From positions 153,329 to 217,328 of the forward strand of contig NZ_KQ033915.1 of NCBI RefSeq assembly GCF_000969835.1: a DNA stretch of 64,000 bases, in the 5' to 3' direction. The DNA comes from Parabacteroides goldsteinii DSM 19448 = WAL 12034. Its GTDB lineage: Bacteria; Bacteroidota; Bacteroidia; Bacteroidales; Tannerellaceae. A program made the position numbers and the translations under genes. Positions 1,567 to 64,000 of this stretch are shown here, piece after piece (the first letter of the stretch is position 1; each line of letters starts with the position of its first letter). The notes beneath the pieces are model-generated. The model ran no database searches and was not told the DNA's origin. It worked only from the letters and a program-made list of their open reading frames with translations.

Positions 1567-1598
1567 GAGTGATTACTACCGGTCGCTATGTTTAGTCT

Positions 1599-2696: not shown

Positions 2697-2698
2697 GG

Positions 2699-4989: not shown

Positions 4990-5022
4990 CTTCTGTAGAT
5001 CGTTTATAGATTTATGTTGCCC

Positions 5023-5030
5023 CAAAGTTA
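5023..5030 (-). promoter_or_regulatory. Promoter -7 box of the cupin regulator
   Basis: Minus strand reads TAACTTTG, matching TAnnTTTG, 33 bases upstream of the chosen start at 4989. It decides against the longer start at 5025. Confidence 0.55.
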
Positions 5031-5236
5031 TAAATAAAAAGCAAAATGACTAGAAAAATGGGGGATAGAATGTTATTTAGATATTTTCTTTGGATAAGCA
5101 AATGTTAAATCCTATATTTGTTTATGTGTAGGGCTTGAATTTGTTATTGTTAACTCTGGATCTAATATATTGATTAAGTTTTTACTATAAGCGATATCAG
5201 GTCTGCCCTAAAATATTTAATTAATATAGTAAACTC

Positions 5237-5704
5237 ATGAATCAAAAGATTAAAATGCATTTCTTCGAAATAGAACGTCCGGACTTTTATCTTTTTATAT
5301 TTATATTGGATAGAATTATACCTCCTCCTAAAATATCAAAGTTTTCAGAGAATACGGAATATATAGAAATATATAATAAGATTCATCACTATGTAGTGAC
5401 TGAAAAGCATTTCCTGGATAAAGATATAACAGTAGATATCATTGTCCGTCAATGTAACGTTAAGAAAAAGTCATTGAATAAGATTCTTAGGTTGAAAGAT
5501 GACGTTGCTTTTCATGCATATATAAATAAACAGCGTGTTATTTATGCATCCGCTTTATTATTGGAACCCTCTAATAAGCTGATTGAAGTTGTAGCTTCGG
5601 AATCATGCTTTAATAATTCCCGGACATTTGTGCGTAATTTCAAAATAGTATACCATATGACTCCCAGTGAATATCGTCGTTCTCATAGGACAAAAAACTC
5701 CTGA
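5237..5704 (+). CDS. Small AraC-type helix-turn-helix protein
   Basis: A 155-residue protein whose C-terminal two thirds resemble the AraC/XylS DNA-binding domain: a first helix-turn-helix around 60-100 (DITVDIIVRQCNVKKKSLNK) and a second around 115-150 ending in SRTFVRNFKIVYHMTPSEYRR, the family signature. There is no room for a ligand-binding or sensor domain; the first 50 residues are hydrophobic and of unknown role. It stands alone between divergent neighbours, is AT-rich, and its target is unknown. A strong terminator-like hairpin follows at 5925-5960. Confidence 0.75.
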   Translation: MNQKIKMHFFEIERPDFYLFIFILDRIIPPPKISKFSENTEYIEIYNKIHHYVVTEKHFLDKDITVDIIVRQCNVKKKSLNKILRLKDDVAFHAYINKQRVIYASALLLEPSNKLIEVVASESCFNNSRTFVRNFKIVYHMTPSEYRRSHRTKNS

Positions 5705-6102
5705 TTTTATAGCTGAGCAGTCAAAAGAAACAAATAAGAACGATTTTGTCCTATCCATGGATCGTTTTTGTCTTCTTCATGCTTTGTTTTTCTTTGCTTG
5801 ATCCGTTTTTTTGTTATTTCTTTGCATCAGAGATAAATGATAAAAATAAAAGGTATTAAAGTATATAGATGCATAGGCATACCTTATCTATGAAAAAGAG
5901 AAAGAAGAAGTGATTCTTCTTTGAGTAGTCTGATGAAGACGTTTGTCGGACTACTTTTTCTAGAATACTCGTAGCCTATGATTAAATTTATGTTTTTTCT
6001 TTTTATTCATTTGGAGAGGTTGATCAACTTTATTTTTTCATAGTTTTTGATTTAGTAATCAGGTAAGGTCCCGGCTTGTGAAAGTCGGGACTTTTGGTAT
6101 AC
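5705..6102. other. Gene-free stretch with a series of hairpins
   Basis: About 400 AT-rich bases without a credible gene. It holds a perfect 9-bp hairpin (5901-5922, AAAGAAGAA with TTCTTCTTT), the terminator-like stem at 5925-5960, and a third stem near 6067-6092 (GTCCCG with CGGGAC followed by TTTT). A small untranslated RNA on the plus strand would fit, but no clear promoter was found. Confidence 0.4.
5925..5960 (+). terminator. Intrinsic terminator
   Basis: A 9-bp stem (GTAGTCTGA at 5925-5933 with TCGGACTAC at 5946-5954, one G-U pair) is followed directly by TTTTTCT. Confidence 0.6.
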
Positions 6103-6136
6103 AAAAAAAGGATAACCTTTCGATTATCCTTTTTTC
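6103..6136. terminator. Terminator of the tRNA operon
   Basis: Arms AAAAAGGATAA (6105-6115) and TTATCCTTTTT (6124-6134) form an 11-bp stem ending in T runs on both strands, just downstream of tRNA-Gly on the minus strand. Confidence 0.75.
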
Positions 6137-6140
6137 AGAG

Positions 6141-6213
6141 AGCGGAAGACGGGGCTCAAACCCGCGACCCTCAGCTTGGAAGGCTAATGCTCTATCAACT
6201 GAGCTACTTCCGC
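6141..6213 (-). tRNA. tRNA-Gly (anticodon TCC)
   Basis: The minus strand folds as a cloverleaf: acceptor GCGGAAG/CTTCCGC, D arm TAGCTCAGTTGATAGAGCA, anticodon loop CTTCCAA with TCC, and T arm GCGGGTTTGAGCCCCGT. Length is 73 bases and no CCA is encoded. It lies 26 bases downstream of tRNA-Tyr, in the same transcript. Confidence 0.93.
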
Positions 6214-6239
6214 AATTTTTATTGCTTTTGAAATAGTAG

Positions 6240-6322
6240 TGGGCAGTGATGGATTCGAACCACCGAAGTCGAAAGACAGCTGAGTTACAGTCAGCCCCAT
6301 TTGGCCACTCTGGTAACTGCCC
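6240..6322 (-). tRNA. tRNA-Tyr (anticodon GTA)
   Basis: The minus strand gives an 83-base type II tRNA: acceptor GGGCAGT/ACTGCCC, anticodon loop CTGTAAC with GTA, a long variable arm, and T arm GGTGGTTCGAATCCATC. First gene of a Tyr-Gly tRNA operon. Confidence 0.93.
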
Positions 6323-6343
6323 CTATTATTTTCAATTGCAGTG

Positions 6344-6374
6344 CAAAGGTACGATTATTTTTGAAACCTGCAAG
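6344..6374 (-). promoter_or_regulatory. Promoter of the Tyr-Gly tRNA operon
   Basis: Minus strand carries CTTG at 6374-6371 and TACCTTTG at 6351-6344 with a 19-base spacer, an excellent match to the Bacteroidetes -33/-7 promoter pattern. Confidence 0.75.
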
Positions 6375-6377
6375 CGT

Positions 6378-6860
6378 TTAGTCAGAAAAATGAACCATTT
6401 TTAATGCGGTCACTGCTGCTTCATCCCCTTTGTTTCCGTACTTACCGCCTGCACGATCTTCCGATTGCTGCATATTGTCCGTAGTTAACAGACCGAAAAT
6501 GAATGGGATATCATACATCAGGTTTAGTTCGGTAACACCTTGTGTAACGCCTGAACAAACATAATCAAAATGTGGAGTATCGCCTCTGACAACACAGCCA
6601 AGAACGATCACAGCGTTTACATCTTTTGTTTCAGCCATGCGTTTTGCACCAAAAGTCAGTTCGAAACTACCCGGTACACGTTTCACATAGATATTTTCCG
6701 GTTTTACACCATGTTTTTCCAGAGTGTTGCAGGCACCTTCCAGTAATTTCTCGGTGATGTGCTTATTCCACTCTGCGACTACAATACCGAACGTCATTTC
6801 TGAACCGTCAGGAACACTGTTGAAGTCGTAGTCTGATAAATTTTGATAAGCTGTAGCCAT
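6378..6860 (-). CDS. ribH: 6,7-dimethyl-8-ribityllumazine synthase
   Basis: Penultimate step of riboflavin synthesis: condenses the ribityl-aminouracil with dihydroxybutanone phosphate. The 160-residue protein has the standard length and blocks: [17 protein letters not shown] (substrate binding), [33 protein letters not shown] with the catalytic histidine, and FGLLTTDN near the C-terminus. Members assemble into pentamers or 60-mers. It lies downstream of the TPR protein on the same strand, but a hairpin at 6878-6909 between them suggests partial or complete termination. The end of the gene nearly touches the tRNA-Tyr promoter. Confidence 0.95.
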
Positions 6861-6877
6861 AACTTTCTATTTAAAAT

Positions 6878-6909
6878 AAAAGGATGCCTTTTTTGATGGA
6901 CATCCTTTT
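6878..6909 (-). terminator. Hairpin between TPR gene and ribH
   Basis: Arms AAAAGGATG (6878-6886) and CATCCTTTT (6901-6909) form a 9-bp stem that ends in T on the minus strand, between the two genes. Confidence 0.55.
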
Positions 6910-6935
6910 ATATAGTTCATATCGTAATGATAATA

Positions 6936-7619
6936 TTATTTTGCAGCAGAAGCACGAGCGATATATTTGTCGATATCGGCAGCTTCCATTGAGTTGAAAT
7001 ATTTTTCTTTGATCGTAGTGTATGCTTTAACTGCATCGCTATATTGTTTCTGGTTTTCGTAGGCAATACCTGCTTTTTTCAGATAAACCGGGCTGATCAC
7101 TTCGTTGTCTGCTTTCTTAGCAGCTTTTTCGAAATAGCTGATACCTTCTTTTACATTACCCATATTTACATAGCAGTCACCGATCAGGCCGATGATAGCC
7201 GGAGAAATCATATTGTCGTCTCCACTGAATGATTTCAGTTTGTCAAGAGCTTTTTCAGTTTCTCCCATCTTGAAATAACAGATACCTGCATAAGCCTTTG
7301 CCAGGTTGCCGGAAGCAGTACTTCCATATTGGTCGATGATACCTTCGAATCCGTCAAAGTCAGCGCCATTACCGTTTAAAGCCAGATTGAAAGAATCTTT
7401 AGCGAAATACTGTTCTCCTTTAAATATAGCAGCGGCTGCTTTCTTTTCCTGAGGAATCAAATAACCGTGTTTAATTCCTAAAACAGCTCCAACAACGAGT
7501 GCGATAGCTATAATTCCGTAAATGATCTTTTTTGAATTGTTTTCAATGAACTGCTCTGATCTTGAAACAATTTCTTCTACTTCTAACTCCGTGTTGGTGT
7601 TTTTTTCCTTAGTAGCCAT
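6936..7619 (-). CDS. Membrane-anchored tetratricopeptide repeat protein
   Basis: A 227-residue protein with a cytoplasmic N-terminus, one transmembrane helix at about residues 33-51 (KIIYGIIAIALVVGAVLGI) and several TPR-like helix pairs after it (AKAYAGICYFKMGETEKAL, PAIIGLIGDCYVNMGNVKEG, PVYLKKAGIAYENQKQYSDA). The layout is that of the YfgM-like/TPR_21 family, which in other bacteria works with periplasmic chaperones and the Sec machinery; that role here is inference. It is transcribed away from recF, with facing promoter boxes at 7681-7688 and 7731-7738. The start follows directly from the promoter position. Confidence 0.78.
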   Translation of the reverse strand: MATKEKNTNTELEVEEIVSRSEQFIENNSKKIIYGIIAIALVVGAVLGIKHGYLIPQEKKAAAAIFKGEQYFAKDSFNLALNGNGADFDGFEGIIDQYGSTASGNLAKAYAGICYFKMGETEKALDKLKSFSGDDNMISPAIIGLIGDCYVNMGNVKEGISYFEKAAKKADNEVISPVYLKKAGIAYENQKQYSDAVKAYTTIKEKYFNSMEAADIDKYIARASAAK

Positions 7620-7680
7620 AATGTGTTATAGTTATTTATTATTTTTATCTACTGATTTATGCCAATGGCAATTCAAAGCG

Positions 7681-7688
7681 CAAAAGTA
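7681..7688 (-). promoter_or_regulatory. Promoter -7 box of the TPR gene
   Basis: Minus strand reads TACTTTTG, a TAnnTTTG match 61 bases upstream of the start codon. No clear -33 element. Confidence 0.45.
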
Positions 7689-7730
7689 GTTTTTTTTACT
7701 GATATAATCTATACTTAGAAGTATATTTTT

Positions 7731-7738
7731 TAATTTTG
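7731..7738 (+). promoter_or_regulatory. Promoter -7 box of recF
   Basis: TAATTTTG, a TAnnTTTG match 19 bases upstream of the recF start. No clear -33 element. Confidence 0.45.
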
Positions 7739-7757
7739 TACGATTAATAAGGTACAG

Positions 7758-8861
7758 ATGATACTCAAAAAGCTTTCTATTCTCAATTATAAAAATATTC
7801 TTCAGGCGGAAGTCGCTTTCTCTCCGAAAATGAATTGTTTCTTTGGAAATAATGGGATGGGGAAGACGAACCTGCTGGATGTGATCCACTATCTTTCGTT
7901 TTGCAAGAGTCATATCAATACTCCTGATAGTCAGATTATAAATAATGATCAGGATATGTGCGTTATCCAGGGTGAATATGATTACGAGGGGAGAAACGAG
8001 GATATATTCTGTGCTATCCGCCGTCGCCAGCGGAAACAGTTCAAACGGAATAAAAAGGAATATGATAAGTTGTCCGAACACATCGGACTCCTGCCTTTGG
8101 TTATGGTGTCGCCGGCGGATTCAGATCTGATCCGGGGGGGGAGTGACGAACGCCGCCGCTTTCTGGATCTGATCATTTCGCAACAGGACAAACAATATCT
8201 GCATGCCTTGATACAATATAACAAGGCTTTGCTCCAGCGGAATATTCTTTTGAAGAATCAAAATACAGATACATCTCTGTATGAAGTGCTGGAAATGCAA
8301 TTGGATATGTATGGGCGGATGGTGTTCGAGAAGCGCCAGCTGCTGGTGGAAAGTTTTATTCCTATTTTTAACGAATACTATCAAACTATCTGCCGTTCTA
8401 CCGAACAGGTCGGATTGGGGTATATATCCCAACTGGCAGACCGGAATCTGGCTGAGTCGCTGGCTGCCAACAGGGAGCGTGACCGTATTCTGGGATATAC
8501 TTCCAACGGTGTTCATAAAGATGAACTGGAAATGACATTGAACGAACAATTAATCCGCAGGGCCGGTTCGCAAGGACAAAATAAAACTTATCTGATAGCA
8601 CTGAAGTTGGCTCAGTTTGCTTTTCTGACCCGGAAAGGGCAGACAACTCCCATTTTGCTTTTGGATGATATATTTGATAAACTGGATGCGGAACGAGTGG
8701 CTGAGATCATCAAGCTGGTCAGTGGAGATAGTTTCGGGCAGATATTTGTTACCGATACCAACCGGAAATACCTGGATGAAATCCTGCAGGCAATGAATCA
8801 TGATTATGCTTTGTTTAGAGTAGAACAGGGTGAAGTTCAACCGATGGAGGATCAGCCATGA
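7758..8861 (+). CDS. recF: DNA replication and repair protein RecF
   Basis: SMC-like ATPase that, with RecO and RecR, loads RecA at single-strand gaps. The 367-residue protein has Walker A GNNGMGKT at residues 30-37, the ABC signature-like block RRAGSQGQNKTYLIALKLAQF, and Walker B PILLLDDIFDKLD, all in the expected order and near the usual length. A run of eight G occurs in the coding sequence at 8134-8141 (IRGGSDERR). The gene overlaps the following DUF721 gene by four bases (ATGA), so the two are co-translated. Confidence 0.95.
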   Translation: MILKKLSILNYKNILQAEVAFSPKMNCFFGNNGMGKTNLLDVIHYLSFCKSHINTPDSQIINNDQDMCVIQGEYDYEGRNEDIFCAIRRRQRKQFKRNKKEYDKLSEHIGLLPLVMVSPADSDLIRGGSDERRRFLDLIISQQDKQYLHALIQYNKALLQRNILLKNQNTDTSLYEVLEMQLDMYGRMVFEKRQLLVESFIPIFNEYYQTICRSTEQVGLGYISQLADRNLAESLAANRERDRILGYTSNGVHKDELEMTLNEQLIRRAGSQGQNKTYLIALKLAQFAFLTRKGQTTPILLLDDIFDKLDAERVAEIIKLVSGDSFGQIFVTDTNRKYLDEILQAMNHDYALFRVEQGEVQPMEDQP

Positions 8862-9151
8862 AGCGAAAGAATACACAAGCGATCGGTGAAGTCCTGAGAG
8901 ATTTCTTTGAAGATAATACGGAACTTTATGAAAAGATTCTGGAAATTCGTGTGGAACGTGCCTGGAAAGAAGTGCTCGGACCGATGGTTATGCAATATAC
9001 CCGTAATATATATGTACGCGATCATATATTATATGTATCGTTGACTTCTGCTGTCTTGAGAAGTGAGCTGACTTTATGCCGTGAACGGTTGGTGAAGAGT
9101 CTGAATGAGTATGCCGGGGCAACCGTTATACACGATATTATTATCCGTTGA
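8858..9151 (+). CDS. DUF721 domain protein (DciA-like)
   Basis: A 97-residue protein with the DUF721 pattern: IGEVLRDFFEDN, then RAWKEVLGPMVMQYTRNIYVRDHILYVSLTSAVLRSEL. DUF721 includes DciA, which helps load the replicative helicase in bacteria lacking DnaC, and the position directly after recF (ATGA overlap) is the standard location in Bacteroidetes and Actinobacteria. A role in replication initiation is inferred from family and position. Its last codons overlap by 11 bases the end of the convergent cyclo-ligase gene. Confidence 0.85.
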   Translation: MKRKNTQAIGEVLRDFFEDNTELYEKILEIRVERAWKEVLGPMVMQYTRNIYVRDHILYVSLTSAVLRSELTLCRERLVKSLNEYAGATVIHDIIIR

Positions 9152-9710
9152 CAATCTCTTTTTCCGTAATGATCATATCCATTTTCTTATCGAAAGATTC
9201 GGTAGGGACTGTGTCTTGTAGCTGAAAATCGAAACATATACCGATTTTGGGTGCTTGCAATGTGGATAACAGTCTGTCGTAATATCCTTTACCGCGTCCC
9301 ATGCGATTCAGTTGCCGGTCGAAAGCTACACCCGGAACAATGATCAGGTCTATTTCCGATTCATCGACAGTTGTTTCCTGTTCGATAGGTTCCATAATGC
9401 CGAAGATGCCCGGTTTAAGGCTGTCAGTGCCGTTATAGGGTAACAGGCGGAGATCATCGCCTACAATCAACGGTAGGAGAAGTTGTTTTTTTTCAAACCA
9501 TTTTTCAAGAAAACCGGCCGTTTGGACTTCGCCGGGTATCGCGTTGTATAAAGCGATACAGGAAGCCTGCCGGAAGAGTTCAGTCTCTTCCAGCCGCTTC
9601 ATTATTTCTTCGGAAAGATCAAGCAATGTAGTCTTCTTGTACGATTTCTTTAGCGAGGCTATGTATTTTCGGAGTTGTTGCTTGGATTCCTGCAATTCCT
9701 TTGTCTGCAT
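9141..9710 (-). CDS. 5-formyltetrahydrofolate cyclo-ligase
   Basis: ATP-dependent conversion of 5-formyl-THF to 5,10-methenyl-THF, recycling stored or inhibitory folate. The 189-residue protein has the family features: basic N-terminal helix KQQLRKYIASLKKSYKK, IALYNAIPGEVQT, LIIVPGVAFDRQLNRMGRGKGYYDRLL (phosphate and folate binding) and GICFDFQL. The start at 9710 lies 92 bases inside the upstream protease gene in another frame. The N-terminal helix is needed by the family, so the overlap is probably real and suggests translational coupling. Confidence 0.9.
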   Translation of the reverse strand: MQTKELQESKQQLRKYIASLKKSYKKTTLLDLSEEIMKRLEETELFRQASCIALYNAIPGEVQTAGFLEKWFEKKQLLLPLIVGDDLRLLPYNGTDSLKPGIFGIMEPIEQETTVDESEIDLIIVPGVAFDRQLNRMGRGKGYYDRLLSTLQAPKIGICFDFQLQDTVPTESFDKKMDMIITEKEIVNG

Positions 9711-11340
9711 CTTTTTTCTCTAATGTAGGAACGGATTTACCTTCGTTTATGATCTGGATAGCACGTAATAACGTAGGATCGTCTTTCAGGAAGATCGGAT
9801 AGAATCCGGCTTCGTCGAAAAAGTTGCGTACGATATATGCCTGCAACTGGCTTTCGATCAGCTTTCCTGATATATTGATCAGGTTCGGGCGTTTCTTGAT
9901 CCCTTTGGTTGCGGCAAAGTTCGTGAAGTCATATAGCAATGGCTGCGATTGCAGATACTTGTACAGATCCTGATAAGTCGTGAACGAAGATAATTTTTCA
10001 CGATTCTGGTCTGAATATTCAAGTGCATACAGATAAAGTGTGCCACTGTTGACGATACTTGTGAAATACGTTGTAATTCCGCTTGTATCGCGTGGAATAA
10101 ATATATCCGGCATGATACCGCCGCCACCATAGACCGTACGTCCCATCATGGTGTTATATTTTTCCGTATGCGTATTCTTGATACTGTCGGCTGAATCGAA
10201 TTCACCATGGATGAATCGGTTGTATATATCCTGATCATAATCGGTGGAATTACCCATTTCATAATCTTTTTGGATACTTCTTCCGGAAGGAGTGTAGTAG
10301 CGGGCGATTGTCAGGCGGATTTCAGAACCGTCGCTCAGTTTGATCGGTGATTGAACCAATCCCTTTCCATACGTACGGCGGCCGATGATCAATCCACGGT
10401 CGTTATCCTGGATCGCTCCGGAGAAAATCTCGCTGGCAGAAGCCGAGAACTCATCTGTCAGGACAACGATCGGAGCCTCTTTGCAAGTGCCGGTTCCGTT
10501 TGTATAGACATCGTTACGGGGGAAGGCCTTACCTTCCGTGTAAACGATCAGTCTTCCTTCCGGCATGAATTCGTTGACCATATTGATGGCGGCATCCATA
10601 TAACCTCCCGTATTTCCACGCAAGTCAATAACAAAAGAACTACATCCTGCTTCTTTCAGTTTGGCGATAGCTGTAATGAACTCGTTATAAGTTGTCCGGC
10701 CGAACTTGCTGACTTTGATATAGCCGATACCTTTACTTACTTCGTAGAAAACATCCACTGAGTTGACCGGGACATCACCGCGTGTAACATCGAAATAAAG
10801 CAACTCCGGTTCACCTCCGCGTTTCACTCCCAGTTTAACCGTACTGTTCTTTGCTCCGCGCAGCGTACGCATAATTTTTGCCTGGCTGGTGTTATTTCCT
10901 GAATAGATCGAGTCGTTGATTGTAATGATACGGTCGAATGGCAATAAACCGGCTTTTTCAGCCGGACCTCCGGAGATAACACTGATCACCAGGATCGTGT
11001 CTGTCTGCATATTGAATGATACACCGATACCGCTGAACGATCCTTCGAGGTCTTCATTCACTATCGTTGCGTCTTCGGCAGGTATGTAAACGGAGTGCGG
11101 ATCCAGTTCACTGAATATTTTAGGTATGGTGCCTTCCACCAGCTTCGCCATATTAACGGTATCGACATATTGTTCACCAATAATATCGAGTATGGCATTT
11201 ATTTTATTCCCGCTGGAGAACATACGGCGCTTGCCATGTTGTGTAAGAGAAAGATAATTGTTCCCGATAAAAATTCCGAGAGCAATACTTGCTGCAATGA
11301 TAACAGGTAACCAGATGGTCAACCTTCTGTTTTTGTCCAT
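9619..11340 (-). CDS. Carboxy-terminal processing protease (S41 family)
   Basis: Periplasmic serine protease of the CtpA/Prc type that trims C-termini of envelope proteins. The 573-residue protein has a signal anchor at residues 8-26, an N-terminal helical part, a PDZ domain at about 95-185 (FSGIGVSFNMQTDTILVISV), and the S41 core with the catalytic dyad Ser301 (DEFSASASE) and Lys326 (TYGKG), 25 residues apart as in Prc. A C-terminal tail of about 170 residues follows, typical for the Bacteroidetes form. Its last 92 bases overlap the start of the cyclo-ligase gene. Upstream comes the deaminase gene 12 bases away, making a three-gene operon. Confidence 0.92.
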   Translation of the reverse strand: MDKNRRLTIWLPVIIAASIALGIFIGNNYLSLTQHGKRRMFSSGNKINAILDIIGEQYVDTVNMAKLVEGTIPKIFSELDPHSVYIPAEDATIVNEDLEGSFSGIGVSFNMQTDTILVISVISGGPAEKAGLLPFDRIITINDSIYSGNNTSQAKIMRTLRGAKNSTVKLGVKRGGEPELLYFDVTRGDVPVNSVDVFYEVSKGIGYIKVSKFGRTTYNEFITAIAKLKEAGCSSFVIDLRGNTGGYMDAAINMVNEFMPEGRLIVYTEGKAFPRNDVYTNGTGTCKEAPIVVLTDEFSASASEIFSGAIQDNDRGLIIGRRTYGKGLVQSPIKLSDGSEIRLTIARYYTPSGRSIQKDYEMGNSTDYDQDIYNRFIHGEFDSADSIKNTHTEKYNTMMGRTVYGGGGIMPDIFIPRDTSGITTYFTSIVNSGTLYLYALEYSDQNREKLSSFTTYQDLYKYLQSQPLLYDFTNFAATKGIKKRPNLINISGKLIESQLQAYIVRNFFDEAGFYPIFLKDDPTLLRAIQIINEGKSVPTLEKKDADKGIAGIQATTPKIHSLAKEIVQEDYIA

Positions 11341-50722: not shown

Positions 50723-51682
50723 TTAATTCACCAATGGCATATAAGGTTGCTTTTTAGCTAATAAATTCCAAATAACAACGAGTAGCTTTCGAGCATTTGC
50801 CATTAAAGCCTTGTTGTGATTCATTCTCTTTTTCAAGGTATGATATCTGCTATAAAATTTAGATGTTTGAGTCCTGCAGGCTCCCCATGCACATTGTGTA
50901 AGCATAACACGTAAATACTTGTTTCCATGTAAAGTCTTTCTTCCTTTGATCTTTCCTGCACTTTGATCATTTCGCGGTCTTAATCCAGCCCAGCCAACTA
51001 AAGCTGATGCTGTTAGAAAGGCTTTCATGTCAACACCGATTTCTGCTATGATTCTCATAGCGCTTTCCTCTTTTATCCCAGGAGCTGTTTGAAGGATTTC
51101 CAGTTCCTCGGCATAATGTCCCTCGCAAATTATTCGCATTTTCTCTTTACACTCAAGAAGCTGACGATCATAAAGTTCCACTTCTTCCAAACTCATTTTA
51201 AGCATGTCTCTGTCTGATGAAGATACAATACCAGTCAAAGACGACTTAATAACCTCATGACAATGTTTATTACGAATACGCTTGTGAACCAACAGAGCTA
51301 ATACTTCAGAATCAGTTTCACCACAGATTAATGCATTGACCACCTTACGCATGGATTTACAACCAATATCAGAAACATAATTACTCAAACGAATATTGCA
51401 ACGTTGCAACGTTAGATCGATAGCAGATTCAGCTTGCTGTTTGCGACGAGTCAAATGGAAGATACGACGACTGTACTGACGTAATTCCTGTATTTTTGAA
51501 TCAGGAATATAACTTCCCTTAATTAGCTCTTTCTGAAGAACAGTCGCAATCCATTGGGCATCTTTAATATCAGTTTTACGACCAGGGAGTTGACGGATGA
51601 AATAAGGGTTAACCAATTTAACATCAAAATCGCATTCCAAAATGCGCCAAATAGGAACCCAATAAATACTGGTGCTTTCCAT
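50723..51682 (-). pseudogene. IS110-family transposase, 5' end removed by ICE insertion
   Basis: 319 residues remain. The C-terminal Transposase_20 domain is intact (LQTAPGIKEESAMRIIAEIG ... GLRPRNDQSAGKIKGRKTLHGNKYLRVMLTQCAWGACR, with the serine in QSAGK expected to be catalytic in this family). The middle part keeps RKTDIKDAQWIATVL, but the first 60-90 residues of the RuvC-like DEDD domain, which carry the first catalytic acid, are missing. The frame enters at MESTSIYW, preceded by codons for NFA that form the ICE attachment site, so the insertion sequence was broken there. IS ends are not determined; about 190 bases of 3' flank (50535-50722) contain a small stem (CTACAT/ATGTAG) but no gene. 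Confidence 0.85.
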
Positions 51683-51693: not shown

Positions 51694-52013
51694 TACAAAA
51701 AAGTGAAATGCGGAAAGATATAGTGATAGAATTGAGTTACAAGGGTTTCAGTCGGGTTTCCGATTATTCGTGAAGCCATCGCAATCACCGCTGAAGCCAA
51801 ATCAGGACGCCGCTACGTTACTTGTCCGTAACCATGCCCGAAAGGGCGACAAACGGACACGGATAGCGAAACAAGGCGTTAAAGATTAGTGAGTTACTGA
51901 CAACCCACGCAATAAATCCGGTTACGAAAAAAGATTGCGCCGTTCCTCCCCGTTTTGCGTACCGACACCGGACTCTTCACCAACTAATTTTGAACCTAAA
52001 AAAATTAAGGACG
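51694..52013. other. ICE end region between attL and integrase
   Basis: 320 bases without a gene, expected to hold the arm-type binding sites of the integrase and accessory factors. A GCCCGAAAGGGC hairpin lies near 51836-51848. Specific arm sites were not identified by eye. Confidence 0.5.
51985..51992 (+). promoter_or_regulatory. Promoter -7 box of the integrase
   Basis: TAATTTTG, 21 bases before the chosen ATG. It overlaps an earlier in-frame ATG at 51990, supporting the start at 52014. Confidence 0.5.
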
Positions 52014-53249
52014 ATGAAGAGTACATTTTCAGTAATCTACTACCTCAAACGTCAGGTAGTGAAAAAGGACGGGACAGTACCCGTCATGGGACGCATCACG
52101 GTGGACGGCAGCCAGACGCAGTTCAGTTGTAAACTGACCGTCGATCCCAAGCTGTGGGACACCAAAGGGGGACGTGTCACGGGCAGAAGCTCGGCGGCAC
52201 TCGAAACGAACCGCATGCTCGACAAGATGCGTGTGCGCATCAACAAACATTATCAGGAAATCATGGAGCGTGACAATTTCGTCACGGCGGAGAAGGTCAA
52301 GAACGCCTTTCTCGGACTGGAACACCGCTACCACACGCTGATGCAGGTGTTCCGCCAGCACAACGAGGACTACGAGAAACAGGTGGATGCTGGCATGAAA
52401 GCCAAAGGCACGCTCTTGAAGTACAAGACCGTTTACAAGCACCTGCAAGAGTTCCTCACCATCCGCTACCGCGTGAAGGACATCGCGCTGAAAGAGCTTA
52501 CGTCCGCTTTCATCTCCGACTTCGAAATGTTCCTTCGCACGGACAAGCACTGCTGCACCAACACCGTGTGGCTGTATGTCTGCCCCTTGCGGACGATGGT
52601 GTTCATCGCCATCAACAACGAGTGGCTCACACGCGACCCGTTCCGCGAGTATGAAATCAAGAAGGAGGAAACGACACGCAGTTTCCTGACGAAAGAGGAA
52701 ATCCGGCTGCTGATGGATGGCAGGCTGAAAAACGCCAAGCAGGAGCTTTACCGCGACCTCTACCTGTTCTGCGCCTTCACGGGCTTGTCGTTCGCCGACA
52801 TGCGCAACCTGACGGAAGAGAACATCCATACCTACTTCGACGAACACGAGTGGATAAACATCAACCGCCAGAAGACGGGCGTGGTATCCAATATCCGCCT
52901 GCTCGACATCGCAAAGCGCATCATCGACAAATACCGGGGGCTGTGCGGGAACGGCAGGATTTTCCCCGTTCCCCACTACAACACGTGCCTTGCCGGAATC
53001 CGTTCCGTCGCCAAGCGTTGCGGCATCACCAAGCACATCACGTGGCATCAGAGCCGCCACACGGCAGCCACGACGGTGTTCCTCTCCAACGGCGTACCCA
53101 TCGAAACGGTGAGTTCCATGCTGGGACACAAGAGCATAAAGACTACACAGATATACGCGAAAATCACCAAAGAGAAGCTCAACCAAGACATGGAGAATCT
53201 TGCCGCAAGGTTGAACGGCATCGAGGAATTTGCAGGTTGCACCATCTAA
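52014..53249 (+). CDS. int: Tyrosine recombinase, IntDOT-like ICE integrase
   Basis: Catalyses integration and excision of the ICE at GTAnnTTTGC sites. Started at 52014 (MKSTFSVIYYLKRQ), the protein is 411 residues, the length I recall for IntDOT. Catalytic positions agree with IntDOT: Ser259 (TGLSF) in place of the usual first arginine, Arg285, Lys287, His345 and Arg348 in WHQSRHT, and nucleophile Tyr381 in QIYAK. N-terminal arm-binding domain 1-90, core-binding about 105-205, catalytic 220-400. It reads away from attL. The opposite strand carries a long open frame that is a shadow of GC-rich codons. Confidence 0.95.
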   Translation: MKSTFSVIYYLKRQVVKKDGTVPVMGRITVDGSQTQFSCKLTVDPKLWDTKGGRVTGRSSAALETNRMLDKMRVRINKHYQEIMERDNFVTAEKVKNAFLGLEHRYHTLMQVFRQHNEDYEKQVDAGMKAKGTLLKYKTVYKHLQEFLTIRYRVKDIALKELTSAFISDFEMFLRTDKHCCTNTVWLYVCPLRTMVFIAINNEWLTRDPFREYEIKKEETTRSFLTKEEIRLLMDGRLKNAKQELYRDLYLFCAFTGLSFADMRNLTEENIHTYFDEHEWININRQKTGVVSNIRLLDIAKRIIDKYRGLCGNGRIFPVPHYNTCLAGIRSVAKRCGITKHITWHQSRHTAATTVFLSNGVPIETVSSMLGHKSIKTTQIYAKITKEKLNQDMENLAARLNGIEEFAGCTI

Positions 53250-56370: not shown

Positions 56371-57948
56371 ATGGCAAAGAAAAAAGACGAAAAGGACGTG
56401 CTGGTTGTCCGTGACGAGAAGACGGGCGAAATCAGCGTGGTAGCCGGGCTGAACGCCGACGGTTCCCCCAAGCGCATCCCCGCGAAAGCGGAGAACGCGC
56501 AGAGTTTCCTGCAATTCGACCGGCACGGCGACGTGCTGGACAACTTCTTCAAGAACTTCTTCCGGCAGTGCAAGGAACCCAGCCGCTTCGGTTTCTACCG
56601 TGTCGCGGCGGACCAAGCCGACAAGCTGCTGGAGGTTATCAAGGACTTGCTGAAAGACCCCGACGGCAACAAGGAGATGCTTGCGCCCCACAAGGTGGAC
56701 ACCTCCGGCTACGAAAAGAAAGTACAGGAGGAGCAGTCCGCCGAAAAGCAGGAACAACCGGAACAGAAACAAGATGACGAACCTAAAAAACAGGAAGAAA
56801 TGGAACAGAAAAACGAACAGAATCAGGAAAGCCCGCAGCAGACGCAGGGCAACCGGGGCTACCAGCCCATCGACGAGAGCAAGATCAATTGGCAGGAGTT
56901 GGAGGAGAAATGGGGCGTGAAGCGCGACGACCTTGAAAAGTCGGGCAACCTTGACAGGATGCTCAACTACGGTAAGTCCGACTTGGTGAGGGTGTCGCCC
57001 AATTTCGGTGGAGAGGCTTTCGAGTTGGACGCCCGCCTCTCCTTCAAGAGGGACGGCGAGGGTAATGTCAGCCTTGTGCCGCACTTCATCCGCAAGGAGC
57101 AGAAACTCGACGAGTACAAGGAACACAAGTTCTCCGACGACGACCGGAAGAACCTGTGCGAAACGGGCAACCTCGGCAGGGTCGTGGACCTCGTGGACAG
57201 GGAAACGGGCGAGATCATCCCCTCGTTCGTCAGCATCGACCGCAAGACGAACGAAATCACGGATGTCCCGGCGAACAAGGTGCGCATACCGGAGCGCATC
57301 GGCAAGACGGAAATCACCAAGCAGGAGCAGGACATGTTGCGTGCCGGGCTGCCCGTGCGTGACAAGCTCATCGAGCGCAAGGACGGCAGGAAGTTCCTCA
57401 CCACCCTGCAAGTGAACGTGGAGCAGCGCGGCGTGGAGTTCGTGCCGGGAACCAGCAGGTCCCCCCGTGCCGCCCGGACGCAGGAAACGAAGAACAACCC
57501 CGCACAAGGACAGGCGCAGGGTACGGAGAATGCCGGGGGCACGAACAAGGAGCAACGCCGCAACACGTGGACGAACGCCGACGGCAGCATCCGCCCCATC
57601 AGCAAATGGAGCGGCGTGGACTTCACCGAACAGCAGAAAGCCGACTACGTGGCTGGCAAAGCCGTGAAATTAGAGAACGTGACCGACAAGCAAGGCTTCC
57701 ACGCCACGATGTACATCAAGTTCAATTCGGAGAAGGGACGCCCGTACCGCTACGACACCAATCCCGACAACGCGCAGAAGGTCGCCCCGTCCAACGAGAG
57801 CCGCACACAGGTGGCAGTGAACAGCGAGGGCAAGACCAACGAGGCTACCAAGAACCTGAAGGAGCCGTTGCGGAAGGGACAGACCGCCCCAAAGGACACC
57901 GCACAGCAACAGCAGCAGAAAAGAAACAACAAGGGCATGAAGATGTAA
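56371..57948 (+). CDS. Orf3-like DUF4099/DUF3945 protein of the excision operon
   Basis: 525 residues. N-terminal domain (ENAQSFLQFDRHGDVLDNFFKNFFRQCKEP), a highly charged Gln/Glu linker at about 125-165, a DUF4099-like part (INWQELEEKWGVKRDDLEKSGNLDRMLNYGKSDLV) and DUF3945-like repeats (LSDDDRKNLCETGNLGRVVDL; LTKQEQDMLRAGLPVRDKL; FTEQQKADYVAGKAVKLENV). In CTnDOT the gene between xis2d and exc is orf3; its biochemical role is not known. It is GC-rich, and the long frame on the opposite strand is a shadow. Confidence 0.78.
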   Translation: MAKKKDEKDVLVVRDEKTGEISVVAGLNADGSPKRIPAKAENAQSFLQFDRHGDVLDNFFKNFFRQCKEPSRFGFYRVAADQADKLLEVIKDLLKDPDGNKEMLAPHKVDTSGYEKKVQEEQSAEKQEQPEQKQDDEPKKQEEMEQKNEQNQESPQQTQGNRGYQPIDESKINWQELEEKWGVKRDDLEKSGNLDRMLNYGKSDLVRVSPNFGGEAFELDARLSFKRDGEGNVSLVPHFIRKEQKLDEYKEHKFSDDDRKNLCETGNLGRVVDLVDRETGEIIPSFVSIDRKTNEITDVPANKVRIPERIGKTEITKQEQDMLRAGLPVRDKLIERKDGRKFLTTLQVNVEQRGVEFVPGTSRSPRAARTQETKNNPAQGQAQGTENAGGTNKEQRRNTWTNADGSIRPISKWSGVDFTEQQKADYVAGKAVKLENVTDKQGFHATMYIKFNSEKGRPYRYDTNPDNAQKVAPSNESRTQVAVNSEGKTNEATKNLKEPLRKGQTAPKDTAQQQQQKRNNKGMKM

Positions 57949-58008: not shown

Positions 58009-60099
58009 ATGAAGACAATCATTGCAGAAAAGCCTTCTGTGGCACGTGAGATTGCCCGCATCGTGGGCGCGACAAAGAGAGAGGAAGGATATTTCGAGGG
58101 AGGCGGCTACGCCGTGACATGGGCGTTCGGACACCTCGTGCAGCTTGCCATGCCCGACGGCTACGGCATACGCGGCTTTGTCCGTGACAACCTGCCCGTC
58201 ATCCCCGACACCTTCACGCTCGTCCCCCGTCAGGTAAAGACGGAGAAGGGCTACAAGCCCGACAGCGGCGTGGTGGCTCAGATTAAAACCGTCACCCGTC
58301 TTTTCAAGGAAAGCGAACAGATCATCGTGGCGACCGATGCCGGACGCGAGGGTGAACTTATCTTCCGCTACCTCTACCATTACACCGGATGCACCACCCC
58401 GTTCGTCCGCCTCTGGATAAGCTCGCTTACCGACAAGGCTATCCGCGAGGGACTGCGAAACCTTGAAGAAGGCGGCAAATACGACAACCTCTATCTTGCT
58501 GCCAAAGCGCGGAGCGAATCAGACTGGCTCGTGGGTATCAACGGCACGCAGGCACTCTCCATCGCCGCCGGACACGGCACGTACTCCGTCGGGCGGGTGC
58601 AGACACCCACGCTGGCGATGGTGTGCGCACGCTATTGGGAGAATCGCCGCTTCACACCCGAAGCCTTCTGGCAGCTCCATATCGCAACGGACGGCTGCAA
58701 TGAAGGAACGGTGAAGTTTTCCTCTTCCGAAAAGTGGAAAGAGAAAGAGCCTGCGACGGAACTATATAATAAGGTGAAGTCGGCTGGCACAGCCACCGTC
58801 ACGAAAGCCGAACGCAAGGAGAAGACGGAGGAAACACCGCTGCTGTACGACCTGACGACGCTCCAGAAGGAAGCCAACGCCAAGCACGGCTTCACGGCGG
58901 AACAGACGCTTGAAATCGCGCAGAAGCTCTACGAGAAGAAGCTCATCACCTATCCGCGAACCGGAAGCCGCTACATCCCCGAAGACGTGTTCGCCGAAAT
59001 CCCCAAGCTGCTCGCCTTCATCGGGGCTTTGCCCGAATGGAAAGGCAAGGTGCAGCCGAAATGCGTCCCGACACGCAGAAGCGTGGACGGCGGTAAGGTG
59101 ACGGACCACCACGCCCTGCTCGTCACGGGCGAGAAACCGCTGTTCCTCTCCAAAGAGGACAGTACCGTCTATCAGATGGTTGCCGGGCGCATGATCGAGG
59201 CGTTCTCCGAAAAATGCGTCAAGGACACCGCCACCGTCACGGCGGAGTGTGCCGGAGTGGAGTTCACGGTGAAAGGCAGCGTTATCAGGCAAGCCGGATG
59301 GCGCGCCGTCTATGGCGGGGAGGACAAGGAAGAAACCGCCATCCCCAATTGGCAGGAAGGCGACACGCTGACGCTGAAAGGCTGCTCCATCACGGAGGGA
59401 AAGACCAAACCCAAGCCGCTGCATACTGAGGCCACACTATTATCGGCAATGGAAACGGCGGGCAAGGACATAGAGGACGACGCATTGCGTCAGGCGTTGA
59501 AGGACTGCGGCATCGGCACGCCCGCCACCCGTGCGGCGATTATCGAAACGCTCTTCAAGCGCGGCTACATGGAACGCTGCAAGAAATCGCTTGTGCCGAC
59601 TGAAAAAGGGCTTGCCCTTTACTCTGTCGTGAAGACGATGCGCATCGCCGACGTAGCCATGACGGGCGAATGGGAGAAGAATCTGGCACGCATCGAGCGC
59701 GGGGAACTGCCCGCAGACACTTTCCGCAGGGAAATAGAGGCGTACACACGCGAAATCACCTCCGAACTGCTCTCGTGCAACAAGCTGTTCTCCCGCAGGG
59801 ATTCCGGCTGCAAGTGTCCCAAGTGCGGGACGGGCAGCATGCAGTTCTACGGCAAGGTGGTACGCTGCGACAATGCGGAGTGCGGGCTGCCCGTGTTCCG
59901 CCTGAAGGCGAACCGCACCCTTTCCGACGACGAGATCAAAGAGCTGCTCACCGACGGGCATACGAAGCTGCTCAAAGGCTTCAAGAGCAAGCAGGGCAAG
60001 AGCTTCGATGCCATAGTCGCCTTTGACGGGGACTATAACACGACTTTCGTGTTCCCCGAAAGGAAAACGAGCAGGAAATTTTCAGGACGGAAGAAATAG
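58009..60099 (+). CDS. topB: Type IA DNA topoisomerase (topoisomerase III, Exc-like)
   Basis: Relaxes or decatenates DNA through a 5'-phosphotyrosine link. The 696-residue protein has the TOPRIM domain (MKTIIAEKPSVAREIARIVG ... DAGREGELIFRYLY), the active-site tyrosine at about residue 315 in LITYPRTGSRYI, the toroid domains (SVGRVQTPTLAMV), and one C-terminal zinc ribbon (CKCPKCGTGSMQF...VRCDNAECG). Position after the Xis-like pair and Orf3-like gene is that of Exc in CTnDOT, which takes part in excision. Confidence 0.93.
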   Translation: MKTIIAEKPSVAREIARIVGATKREEGYFEGGGYAVTWAFGHLVQLAMPDGYGIRGFVRDNLPVIPDTFTLVPRQVKTEKGYKPDSGVVAQIKTVTRLFKESEQIIVATDAGREGELIFRYLYHYTGCTTPFVRLWISSLTDKAIREGLRNLEEGGKYDNLYLAAKARSESDWLVGINGTQALSIAAGHGTYSVGRVQTPTLAMVCARYWENRRFTPEAFWQLHIATDGCNEGTVKFSSSEKWKEKEPATELYNKVKSAGTATVTKAERKEKTEETPLLYDLTTLQKEANAKHGFTAEQTLEIAQKLYEKKLITYPRTGSRYIPEDVFAEIPKLLAFIGALPEWKGKVQPKCVPTRRSVDGGKVTDHHALLVTGEKPLFLSKEDSTVYQMVAGRMIEAFSEKCVKDTATVTAECAGVEFTVKGSVIRQAGWRAVYGGEDKEETAIPNWQEGDTLTLKGCSITEGKTKPKPLHTEATLLSAMETAGKDIEDDALRQALKDCGIGTPATRAAIIETLFKRGYMERCKKSLVPTEKGLALYSVVKTMRIADVAMTGEWEKNLARIERGELPADTFRREIEAYTREITSELLSCNKLFSRRDSGCKCPKCGTGSMQFYGKVVRCDNAECGLPVFRLKANRTLSDDEIKELLTDGHTKLLKGFKSKQGKSFDAIVAFDGDYNTTFVFPERKTSRKFSGRKK

Positions 60100-60176: not shown

Positions 60177-60208
60177 GGCACTCGGAGGGATACCGAGTGC
60201 CTTTTCTT
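60177..60208 (+). terminator. Intrinsic terminator or attenuator in the DUF1896 leader
   Basis: GGCACTCGG (60177-60185) and CCGAGTGCC (60193-60201) form a perfect 9-bp stem followed by TTTTCTTT. It lies between the promoter box and the start codon, so it may end topB transcripts or attenuate the next operon. Confidence 0.65.
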
Positions 60209-60262
60209 TCTCCTTTCCAGACGATTATCCCCGTCATTACCAATCCACTAAATTCCAAAGTA

Positions 60263-60715
60263 ATGAACAACAAGAAGAAAAACGAGGGTCAGACCGACTT
60301 TTCCTATTACGGTCTGTACCTGCTGGACTATCTCCGCACGAACAAGTTTGAACAGGCTTCCGATGATGCCTTCATCCGGGAACGCGCCGACCGTGCCGCC
60401 GAAACGTATGAGCGTGCGCGGCTCGAAGGCTATCCGCCCGAAGGGGCGCAGGAGTTGGCGATGGACACGCTCCTGCGGGGGCTTCGCTATTCCAAGTACG
60501 CCATCCTCCGCGAAGTCGTGGAAAACGAGTTTGCCGAAGAAGTGCCGGAAAAGAAACGCGAGGCCTTCATCCGAAAGCTGCTGCCGCCTGTCGGTAATGT
60601 ATTCTCCGCTTATGACCTTTCGGACGACAATTTCGCCCTGTCGCCCGAATACGACCTGCTCTACACGGAGCTGACGGGAGCCGTCGTCCTTTATATCGGG
60701 GAATATGGCGTTTAA
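60263..60715 (+). CDS. DUF1896 domain protein
   Basis: A 150-residue acidic protein starting MNNKKKNEGQTDFSYYGLYLLDYLRTN with the DUF1896 pattern (ERADRAAETYERARLEGYPPEGAQELAMDTLLRGLRYSKYAILREVVENEF). Function unknown; it is a standard gene of Bacteroidales conjugative elements directly before the large methylase/helicase, which it overlaps by 11 bases. The start at 60263 is chosen because the upstream in-frame codons run through the terminator hairpin. Confidence 0.8.
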   Translation: MNNKKKNEGQTDFSYYGLYLLDYLRTNKFEQASDDAFIRERADRAAETYERARLEGYPPEGAQELAMDTLLRGLRYSKYAILREVVENEFAEEVPEKKREAFIRKLLPPVGNVFSAYDLSDDNFALSPEYDLLYTELTGAVVLYIGEYGV

Positions 60716-63700
60716 CCGCAAACAACGGCTGCGGGACAACATCGAGGCGATACGGACGGCATTCATCCTTGACAGGGAACGGAGGACGGCAACCGCCGAG
60801 GAACAAGCCATACTTCGGAAGTATTGCGGTTTCGGCGGGTTGAAGTGCATACTGAACCCGGCAAAGGAACTGACGGATGCCGTGCATTGGGCGAAATCGG
60901 ACCTCGAACTGTTTGCCCCGACGGTGGAGCTGCACAGGCTGGTGCGTGAAAACAGCAAGGACGATACGGAGTACAAGCGGTACGTGGATGCCATGAAGCA
61001 GTCCGTGCTGACCGCTTTCTACACCCCGCCGGAGATAACCGGCACTATCGCGGACGTACTGCATGAACACGGCATACGTCCCGACCGTGTACTGGAGCCG
61101 TCGGCGGGTGTGGGCGCATTCGTGGATGCCGTGCTGGAAAACAAGCCGGACGCGGATGTCATGGCTTTCGAGAAAGACCTGATGACGGGCAAGATATTGG
61201 GACACCTGCATCCCGACCAAAAGGTAAGGGTGCAGGGATTCGAGAAGATAGAGAAGCCCTTCACGGACTATTTCGACCTTGCCATCTCGAACATCCCGTT
61301 CGGCGACGTGGCTGTGTTCGACCCGGAGTTTACAGGAAGCCAAGACCCGGCAAGGCGTTCCGCACAGAAGGCAATACACAACTATTTCTTCCTGAAAAGC
61401 CTTGACGCGGTGCGTGAGGGCGGCATCGTGGCGTTCATCACCTCGCATGGAGTGCTGGACGCACCGTCCAACGCGCCTATACGCGAGTATATGATGCGTA
61501 ATGCCAATCTGGTGGGTGTCGCACGCCTGCCGAACAACCTCTTCACGGACAACGCGGGTACGGAGGTGGGCAGCGACCTGATTATCCTTCAAAAGAACAG
61601 CGGCAAGAAACGGGAGCTGTACGATTATGAAGAGTTGTTCGTGCAGACGGAAAAGACACCGATAGGCAGTTTCCAGAACGGGTATGTCGGCAGCATCGGC
61701 ATGATTCCCCACTCGGATCTGATAAGCGGCACGGACCCTTACGGGAAACCTGCCTATAAAGTCATGCACCGGGGCGGCATCGGGCAAATGGCGGAGGACT
61801 TGCGGGAACATATGGATATCGAGCTGTATAAGTTGGACAGAAAACTGTATGAAATGCACAGCCTGCATCCGGCACAAGGGAAAAGCACGGTTACAGAAAC
61901 CATTTCCACACCGGTTGTCACTCCTGAGATACAGCCACGTCATGAAATGGCAGCGAAACCCGAAGCGGCAGCACCGCAGCCGGAGGAAGAAAAGCCGGAG
62001 ATAGAGCCGCGCCGCCCCGATTATTCGGAGGGCGTGCAGCTCTCCCTGCTCGACCTCTGGGGCATGACCGAGGAAGTACGCAAGCAGGACGCACCCTCCA
62101 AGAAGAAAAAGACAGCGAAAAAGGGAAGCCCGGCAAGGCGTATGCCTCCCAAACCACAGGCGCAGGTTACGACCGCACCGCCACAGCCGTCTGCCGCACC
62201 GCTGACGGAGAACAGGGACAGCCATGAAACAAAGCCGGTGAGTGTCGCAGCCAAAGCCGATCCGGATGATATTTACGCCACTTTGGATTGGGACACCAAT
62301 CCGCCCATCAACGGCTTCTATGAAATGATGATGGACCTCACGCCGGAGCGACGCAAGGAGCTTCGCAGGCTGGCGGCACAGCATCAGGAGAAACAACGGG
62401 TGGACGGGACGGCGGTGAAAGCCGCTCCCGCCACTAACATGCCGGAAAAGGAAGCGACAAAACGACCCGAAGCACAGCCGGAAGTCGCAACCGTTCCCGT
62501 TACGGACAATAACGCAAGTGAGACAACAACTTCCCTTTTCCCTGAATTTGAAACGGAAAAGCCGAAGGAGGAACCTCTCGACCTTTCTCCCCGTCCGTTC
62601 AACGGTATGCTGGAGCCGCACTACCGTGACGGCTCTATGGTACTGGATGCTTCACGCAATCTCGGTTATTTGAAGGGCCTCACGCCTTACGGCGCGACAT
62701 TCCAACCGCTTGACCTGACCGGCTACCAGAAGGAGAAAGCGATGTTGTATGTGTCACTCCGTGACGCATACGAGCGGCTTTACCGCTACGAGGCGGAGTA
62801 TCACGATGAAGGGTCTGCGCAACGCGGAGCGTTGAATACCTGCTACGATGAGTTTGTCATGCGCTACGGCAACCTCAATGCCAAGCATAACGTGAAACTG
62901 TTGATGATGGATGCCGCCGGACGCGACATCCTTTCGCTGGAACGGGCGGAGGACGGCAGGTTCGTCAAGGCGGACATCTTCGAACGTCCCGTTTCCTTCT
63001 CTGTGGAGAGCCATGCCAACGTAAGCTCTCCCGAAGAGGCGTTATCCGCATCGCTCAACAAGTTCGGCACGGTCAATCTCGACTATATGCGGGAGATAAC
63101 CGACAGCACGGAAGAGGGATTGCTTGACGCCCTCAAAGGACGCATCTTCTACAACCCGCTCGTAACCGGTTACGAGATAAAGGACAGGTTCATCGCCGGG
63201 AACGTGATAGAGAAGGCGGAGCGCATCGAGGCATGGATAGGCGACAACCCCGAAAACGGACGTATGCCGGAAGTGAAGCAGGCGTTGGAGGCTCTGAAAG
63301 AAGCCGAGCCGCAGCGCATCGCCTTTGAGGACCTCGACTTCAATTTCGGGGAACGCTGGATTCCGACGGGCGTGTACGCCGCCTATATGAGCCACCTGTT
63401 CGACACGGACGTGAAAATCGCCTACTCCGCAAGCATGGACGAGTTTTCGGTGGCGTGCGGCTACCGCACCATGAAAATCACGGACGAGTTTTTAGTGAAG
63501 GGCTATTACCGGAACTATGACGGCATGCACCTGTTGAAACACGCCCTGCACAACACCTGCCCTGACATGATGAAGTCCATAGGAAAGGATGAGCATGGCA
63601 ATGACATCAAGGTGCGTGACAGCGAGGGCATACAGCTCGCCAACGCCAAGATCGACGAGATTCGCAACGGGTTCTCGGAATGGCTGGAAGAGCAGTCGCC

Positions 63701-63917
63701 GCAGTTCAAGGAGAGGCTGACAACGATGTACAACCGCAAGTTCAACTGTTTCGTGCGTCCGAAGTATGACGGATCGCACCAGACCTTTCCCGACCTCAAC
63801 CTCAAAGGACTGGCAAGCCGGGGTATCAAGAGCGTCTATCCGTCGCAGATGGATTGCGTCTGGATGCTCAAACAGAACGGCGGCGGCATTTGTGACCACG
63901 AGGTACTGCGCCCATAA
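60705..63917 (+). CDS. N6-adenine methylase/SNF2-type helicase, 5' half, interrupted by a putative group II intron
   Basis: 1070 codons of the giant ICE protein that normally joins a DNA adenine methylase to an SNF2-like helicase. AdoMet motif I LEPSAGVGAF is at residues 130-139 and the catalytic-type motif NIPF at 196-199. A Pro/Lys-rich linker lies around 400-540. The frame ends at GGGICDHEV-LRP-stop: the expected continuation is the Walker A box (HEVGAGKT), so the coding sequence is broken inside that motif at about 63903-63906. The bases after it look like the 5' end of a group II intron, and the rest of the gene should resume beyond the window. Confidence 0.85.
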   Translation: MAFNRKQRLRDNIEAIRTAFILDRERRTATAEEQAILRKYCGFGGLKCILNPAKELTDAVHWAKSDLELFAPTVELHRLVRENSKDDTEYKRYVDAMKQSVLTAFYTPPEITGTIADVLHEHGIRPDRVLEPSAGVGAFVDAVLENKPDADVMAFEKDLMTGKILGHLHPDQKVRVQGFEKIEKPFTDYFDLAISNIPFGDVAVFDPEFTGSQDPARRSAQKAIHNYFFLKSLDAVREGGIVAFITSHGVLDAPSNAPIREYMMRNANLVGVARLPNNLFTDNAGTEVGSDLIILQKNSGKKRELYDYEELFVQTEKTPIGSFQNGYVGSIGMIPHSDLISGTDPYGKPAYKVMHRGGIGQMAEDLREHMDIELYKLDRKLYEMHSLHPAQGKSTVTETISTPVVTPEIQPRHEMAAKPEAAAPQPEEEKPEIEPRRPDYSEGVQLSLLDLWGMTEEVRKQDAPSKKKKTAKKGSPARRMPPKPQAQVTTAPPQPSAAPLTENRDSHETKPVSVAAKADPDDIYATLDWDTNPPINGFYEMMMDLTPERRKELRRLAAQHQEKQRVDGTAVKAAPATNMPEKEATKRPEAQPEVATVPVTDNNASETTTSLFPEFETEKPKEEPLDLSPRPFNGMLEPHYRDGSMVLDASRNLGYLKGLTPYGATFQPLDLTGYQKEKAMLYVSLRDAYERLYRYEAEYHDEGSAQRGALNTCYDEFVMRYGNLNAKHNVKLLMMDAAGRDILSLERAEDGRFVKADIFERPVSFSVESHANVSSPEEALSASLNKFGTVNLDYMREITDSTEEGLLDALKGRIFYNPLVTGYEIKDRFIAGNVIEKAERIEAWIGDNPENGRMPEVKQALEALKEAEPQRIAFEDLDFNFGERWIPTGVYAAYMSHLFDTDVKIAYSASMDEFSVACGYRTMKITDEFLVKGYYRNYDGMHLLKHALHNTCPDMMKSIGKDEHGNDIKVRDSEGIQLANAKIDEIRNGFSEWLEEQSPQFKERLTTMYNRKFNCFVRPKYDGSHQTFPDLNLKGLASRGIKSVYPSQMDCVWMLKQNGGGICDHEVLRP

Positions 63918-64000
63918 GGGCATATAGTAAATGTAGGCTTAGCAACCTACCCGGCAAGGGTTTTCAACGCCGGTCATTAGCCAACTTATCCACTTAGCCG
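63906..64000 (+). mobile_element. Putative group II intron, 5' end (cut by window edge)
   Basis: Starts near CTGCGCCCATAAGGGC, resembling the GUGCGCCC start of group II introns such as Ll.LtrB, and continues with stems GTAGG/CCTAC and CCGGC/GCCGG and the block AGCCAACTTATCC, which lines up with AGCCAACCUAACC in Ll.LtrB domain I. The exact first base is uncertain by a few positions. No reverse transcriptase is visible because the window ends. Confidence 0.65.

Follow-up and report, generated by a model that had tools for sequence, protein, structure and literature searches.

A putative Ll.LtrB-type group II intron with exchanged terminal bases at motif I of a methylase/helicase gene in a Parabacteroides goldsteinii mobile element

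The intron Ll.LtrB of Lactococcus lactis stands for a class of group II introns (group IIA) with a mitochondrial-like maturase, LtrA. Its host gene is the relaxase gene of a conjugative element (PMC6003770). Group II introns are bounded by the consensus ends GUGYG...AY, with reported variations (PMC4238363). Their first and penultimate bases interact (PMC4238363, PMC3669008), a contact proposed from mutants (Chanfreau and Jacquier 1993, as cited in PMC4238363 and PMC3669008), and the intron ends have been compared with those of spliceosomal introns (PMC3669008, PMC4238363, PMC4424553).

The stretch analysed here, ‘the window’, comprises 64,000 nt of Parabacteroides goldsteinii DSM 19448 (NZ_KQ033915.1, positions 153,329 to 217,328), and we judge that a mobile intron of the Ll.LtrB type, with an LtrA-like maturase composed of reverse transcriptase (RT), maturase and HNH parts, probably starts at its end. 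The intron would occupy a phase 0 position in helicase motif I (DHEV|GTGKT), separating the Val codon from the Gly codon, in the methylase/helicase gene of a CTnDOT-like integrative and conjugative element (ICE); most likely it would leave the mRNA by splicing, making the helicase frame whole again, and would move by retrohoming to intron-free copies of the gene, its EBS1 (GACUUC) pairing with the conserved codons GAR-GTN. Its lineage appears to have exchanged the usual first G and penultimate A for C and G, the most likely explanation being that a change in the end-to-end contact was compensated. For this reading as a whole, from insertion and splicing to retrohoming and compensated ends, we put the probability at roughly 0.92.

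The host frame (60705..63917, plus strand) closes as ...GGGICDHEV-LRP-stop, just where the preliminary description had it stop. Exon 1 (60705..63905), ending at the Val codon of ...CDHEV, is assigned to an ICE N-6 methylase/SNF2-type helicase from its open frame, a Pfam match to N6_Mtase, similarity to plasmids and an intact relative in a plasmid record (L003). Upstream on the same strand lie genes for a DUF4099/DUF3945 protein (56371..57948; Pfam), a type IA topoisomerase (58009..60099; PF01131) and a DUF1896 protein (60197..60715; PF08989), in the same order relative to the methylase/helicase gene as in L003, and, further upstream, a tyrosine integrase gene (51990..53249, plus strand; PF00589, PF17293, PF13102), probably of the same element. 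From gene order and integrase within the window, we take this element to be CTnDOT-like. Beside the integrase, on the minus strand, a frame at 50723-51682 resembles a transposase by eye. In L003 the intact gene comprises 1947 codons with the stop counted, and its product shows CDHEVGTGKT starting at residue 1064. From the resemblance to DEMGLGKT-like motifs, we take this site for SNF2-type helicase motif I; a PDB search with the helicase part of L003 gave no relative at E ≤ 0.01.

The first bases of the insert, at 63906-63921, are CTGCGCCCATAAGGGC, which has one match in the window allowing ≤1 mismatch and none in 100 shuffles. When positions 62000-64000 were compared with 12 plasmid records matching the gene, similarity stopped at base 63904 in 11/12 and earlier, at 63813, in the twelfth (H14); L003, the only one of the 12 read at the site, continues as CDHEVGTGKT. 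The Val codon has its wobble position at 63905, and the junction is in phase 0, Val|Gly. The preliminary description had placed an intron inside the Walker A codons: the motif is indeed interrupted, but between two codons rather than within one, and the continuation it expected, CDHEVGAGKT, proved wrong, as all 70 relatives that continue, among the best 120 of 4436, read GTGKT.

The 95 nt of insert within the window (63906..64000, plus strand) appear to open domain I of a group II intron, with C as first base and a predicted first hairpin, GCCC/GGGC, at 63910..63921 that is kept in alignment. They are identical to introns L020 and L017 at 93/95 positions each, to L111 at 92 and to L109 at 87, with all other introns compared sharing at most 76, and the identity with L020 and L017 supports the assignment of the window's own copy. 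That this copy should be a mere 5′ fragment is improbable: only 95 nt are visible, but 93 of them agree with complete relatives. The earlier suggestion of a group II 5′ end thus holds as regards the resemblance to domain I but not the opening bases, which are CUGCG rather than GUGCG.

Complete relatives were found through a 21-base motif, TGCGCCCATAAGGGCATATAG, which occurs in 20 stretches of the genome collection, all titled as Bacteroidota. Five of these (L010, L016, L017, L020, L021) have the helicase-gene flank with the identical codon boundary. At that boundary three complete inserts measure 2496 nt (L020), 2482 nt (L109) and 2459 nt (L017); all three match Rfam RF00029 (domain V/VI) and contain intron-encoded RT/maturase frames of 601–603 aa. 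Folds of L020 and L109 have a two-base bulge in domain V and a single bulged A in domain VI, at -7 from the intron end; L112 and L118, introns at another site, were likewise folded for domain V/VI. The L020 frame (5420-7225) has RVT_1, Intron_maturas2 and AI2M-like HNH matches in Pfam and, as a point of likeness to Ll.LtrB, matches LtrA (5g2x) over residues 8-601 with an E-value of 2.4e-145; its score against NCBIfam group_II_RT_mat, 297.8, falls just under the cut-off of 300. After the intron the helicase frame resumes, as GTGKT in L020 and L017 and as GGGKT in L109, and stays open for 887 aa in L109, 863 aa in L110, 863 aa in L111 and, up to the contig edge, 539 aa in L017; in L108, a longer stretch around L020, an in-frame stop follows after 711 aa of exon 2, while the near-identical L110 continues. 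Exon 2 of L109 matches Helicase_C, with SNF2-rel_dom just below cut-off. The maturase frame foreseen from the window alone therefore occurs in relatives that share both insert and site, and domain V and a resumed frame are there too, although the introns end in GU, not AY, and no resumed frame reads GAGKT. An ordinary insertion sequence, or a deletion, is scarcely credible as an account of the window: no feature was found in favour of either, and in the relatives domain V/VI, the LtrA-like maturase and the precise in-frame resumption rule out both. In the product of L020 exon 1 (1368-4859), residues 422-528 match MutS domain I (PF01624), which Pfam did not find in the window protein.

The ends of the helicase-site introns depart from the consensus. 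C is the first base in all those whose 5′ end was read, namely the window's copy and those of five loci, and the four read at both ends (L017, L020, L109, L111) are C...GU; the ends of L108 and L110 equal those of L020. Positions 2–5 and the last pyrimidine fit GUGYG...AY, and the first base and the penultimate G deviate. As variations of the consensus are reported (PMC4238363), this departure was not taken as a bar to the assignment. Nearly all other related introns start with G and end in AC. In total 51 introns were read at both ends; they amount to 50 distinct sequences, several nearly identical to others, in which the first and penultimate bases are G/A in 41, C/G in five, A/A in three and G/G in one. 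C at position 1 occurs only with penultimate G (5/5: L017, L020, L109, L111 and L112, the L020 and L111 introns being one base apart). This tally leaves out L006/L175 and L154 (too little exon 1), L145, L146, L147, L158, L177 and L184 (at most one end found by pattern) and repeat copies of counted introns, for example L168, L170 and L179; L113/L136, L116 and L171, which the pattern missed and which by eye are G...AC, also lie outside it.

The assigned 3′ ends are independently supported, because the last base and the gamma position, within AAC[A/G]GAG, vary together: U faces A in 7/7 and C faces G in 42/42, so that all 49 introns read fit, with one unread. Moreover, with ends so defined the exons are in frame in 9/9 Bacteroidota introns checked. 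Under the same rule the exons of L001, from Bacillota, are off by one base, making its ends unsure and a shifted splice site possible; L001 is also the single G/G intron, which does not fit the C/G exchange. Shifted 5′ splice sites do exist, as in C.te.I1 and fungal rRNA introns (PMC4424553), and were the true site displaced from the motif at the helicase site too, C would not be the first intron base. This seems very improbable, given that the base preceding C varies like a codon wobble (A, G, C) while C is constant, and that a junction before C keeps the exons in frame in three complete sites.

On a tree of the maturases the helicase lineage forms a clade (support 100/100), and L112 (C...GU) lies apart from it as sister to L118 (G...AU), also at 100/100; L112 and L118 share one and the same coupling-protein target site. 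The tree, which lacks L168-L186 and hence the A/A introns L182 and L185, requires two changes to C, and with only two independent events a test of the exchange on it has no power (sign test p 0.5). The matched change thus suggests a naturally exchanged contact between intron ends, two events being too few to test it. Three introns (L141, L182, L185) have a first A and retain the penultimate A, so a change of first base need not involve the penultimate base, and one relative among the best 120 of 4436 (P0093) ends CDHEVVRP, implying a first G, so the exchange is not universal even at the helicase site. Among the titles and abstract openings listed by a literature search that covered few subscription journals, none described this insertion or a naturally occurring C1:G pair.

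Such ends raise the question of whether the intron splices poorly or not at all, leaving the ICE gene effectively knocked out and the intron surviving by hopping. C...GU does fall outside GUGYG...AY (PMC4238363), and exon 2 of L108 has its in-frame stop. We nonetheless regard poor splicing as unlikely, for C...GU is kept in four helicase-site introns (L020 and L111 differing by a single base), the penultimate and gamma partners match, exon 2 is open for 863–887 aa in three copies, and the LRP ending is common to 31/32 of the ending relatives among the best 120 of 4436. With an intron that splices, the helicase gene would presumably work only after splicing.

The preliminary description also supposed that the intron spreads among related ICE genes, and its distribution supports this. 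A protein search with the exon-1 product returned 4436 relatives, of which the best 120 were examined; since the set ends at 120 and candidates were length-limited, with full-length proteins near 1950 aa outside, the counts are not frequencies. The motif shows 102 of the best 120 to cover the site (18 are without it). Of the 102, 70 read CDHEVGTGKT and 32 end exactly at CDHEV plus three residues (31 LRP, 1 VRP). In a quick exon-1 tree of these 102 relatives and the window, carriers and non-carriers are intermixed: there are 26 state changes, 18 of them forced by well-supported branches, and 434/500 shuffles gave a number as low, i.e. carriers are not clustered beyond shuffles. Five sets of identical exon-1 proteins contain both states, and the window's three nearest rows on the tree are without the intron while the fourth has it. 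Such mixed presence fits the pattern of a mobile element entering and leaving one fixed site, as would be expected of homing.

The putative IBS1 consists of the last six bases of exon 1, codons GAR-GTN (63900..63905, plus strand), which in relatives face GACUUC at about intron nt 288. Over 35 distinct exon/intron combinations, L001 being left out, own IBS1/EBS1 pairs had a mean score of 4.23 versus 2.27 when swapped, a value reached in 0/20000 permutations, and 13/35 own combinations scored ≥4.5 versus 9% of swapped ones. The helicase-lineage EBS1 forms 6/6 pairs with GAR-GTN in L017 and L109, and 5/6 in L020, counting one G-U and with the exon base at -1 (the wobble base) unpaired. The window's IBS1 would likewise make five pairs, with the wobble base at -1 unpaired; by inference from L020, its EBS1 should lie past the window end. 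At the coupling-protein site shared by L112 and L118 the exon letters differ and the EBS1 segments differ correspondingly (scores 4 and 5.5). A scan of the whole region without alignment gave a weak signal (own mean 4.42–4.54 versus 3.87–4.23), and a search for EBS2 by eye gave no assignment. An earlier candidate for EBS1, UACUUC at intron nt 274, was dropped when an alignment of 39 introns pointed 14 nt further on.

Related introns occupy other sites. By flanking letters, 5/20 of the stretches with the 21-base motif belong to a second kind of site (L004, L006, L008, L014, L019; L006, with only three exon bases on that side, was placed by its other flank) and 10/20 to a third (L005, L007, L009, L011, L012, L013, L015, L018, L022, L023). 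Among the few loci run against Pfam, exon 1 of L014 and L019 encodes a relaxase, as does the host gene of Ll.LtrB, and exon 1 of L015 a TraG P-loop; outside the 20, L128 splits TraG and L118 a type IV coupling protein (Pfam). Ten plasmid records weakly match the insert piece, four of them at the intron 5′ motif, and in two of those four (L001, L002) the intron lies in another helicase-like gene. The L001 case (5000-8604, Cytobacillus plasmid pBO1) is a related intron in a Bacillota helicase-like gene, with a second group II intron match (RF02004) some 800 bases after the first. No stretch of the viral contigs contained the 21-base motif; a 15-base motif was found in 32, most not continuing like the intron, and all 32 were excluded from every count. 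The phage collection gave no match at E up to 1.

The helicase family is broken at other motifs as well. Among the best 120 of the 4436 relatives, the sequence stops at PWVRHEVA in 25 and no more than 30 residues from DESH in 22, which we take to be motifs VI and II, respectively; these breaks are known from proteins only, save for four DESH cases in which the DNA was read (L159-L162). One genome from the genus of Bacteroides sp. 224, the isolate that carries the helicase-site intron as L016/L109, has both breaks in one gene of the family (L163/L167). Directly after its DESH codons begins an element starting TTATCAGAA, with at least three tyrosine-recombinase frames (L163, ~2750-10050; G014), and this junction is present in 4/158 genomes of the genus. 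Between HHLEVPW and RPADLEQRNGR of motif VI lies a different group II intron (L167, ~533-3015; RF02012 and RF00029, with an RVT_N/RVT_1/GIIM maturase), after which the helicase resumes with RPADLEQRNGRAVRKGN. We lean slightly towards a broader view, that at least two bacterial group II intron lineages independently replaced G1:A by C1:G (penultimate) and stayed active, and that the helicase family is a hub on which three unrelated mobile elements have settled, at motifs I, II and VI.

If the end contact is indeed the cause and the lineages stayed active, the C1:G exchange would document by natural covariation a contact proposed from mutants, and the GU...A boundary, which has been compared with spliceosomal intron boundaries, would not be obligatory. 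L112 and L118, a natural pair with one target site and differing at both end bases, allow the contact to be tested directly on natural partners. The occurrence of one intron family in relaxase, TraG, coupling-protein and helicase genes suggests that it rides with conjugative elements, and it may be that introns of such elements target codons that can hardly change. Introns or other elements that split the gene may often lie behind ICE helicases recorded as ‘truncated’ in databases.

Inteins in the P-loops of conserved ATPases are likewise mobile elements in the most conserved ATPase motif, but they depend on protein splicing, whereas the insert at the helicase site would be removed by RNA splicing. 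A group II intron insertion has been reported in CTnDOT-like elements too (PMC6907783); that case differs in that the insertion occurs together with ErmF, and the words helicase, methylase and Walker are absent from the main text of that paper. RmInt1, with its 3′ end CC, is another natural departure from AY (PMC4238363), although only its 3′ end is described there as deviating, whereas here the first and penultimate bases change together. Unlike Ll.LtrB, which has G...AY ends, the helicase-site introns read at both ends have C...GU ends, Bacteroidota hosts and, as host gene, an ICE methylase/helicase interrupted at motif I. This is a known kind of intron at a new site and in a new host, with an unusual coordinated change of its ends.
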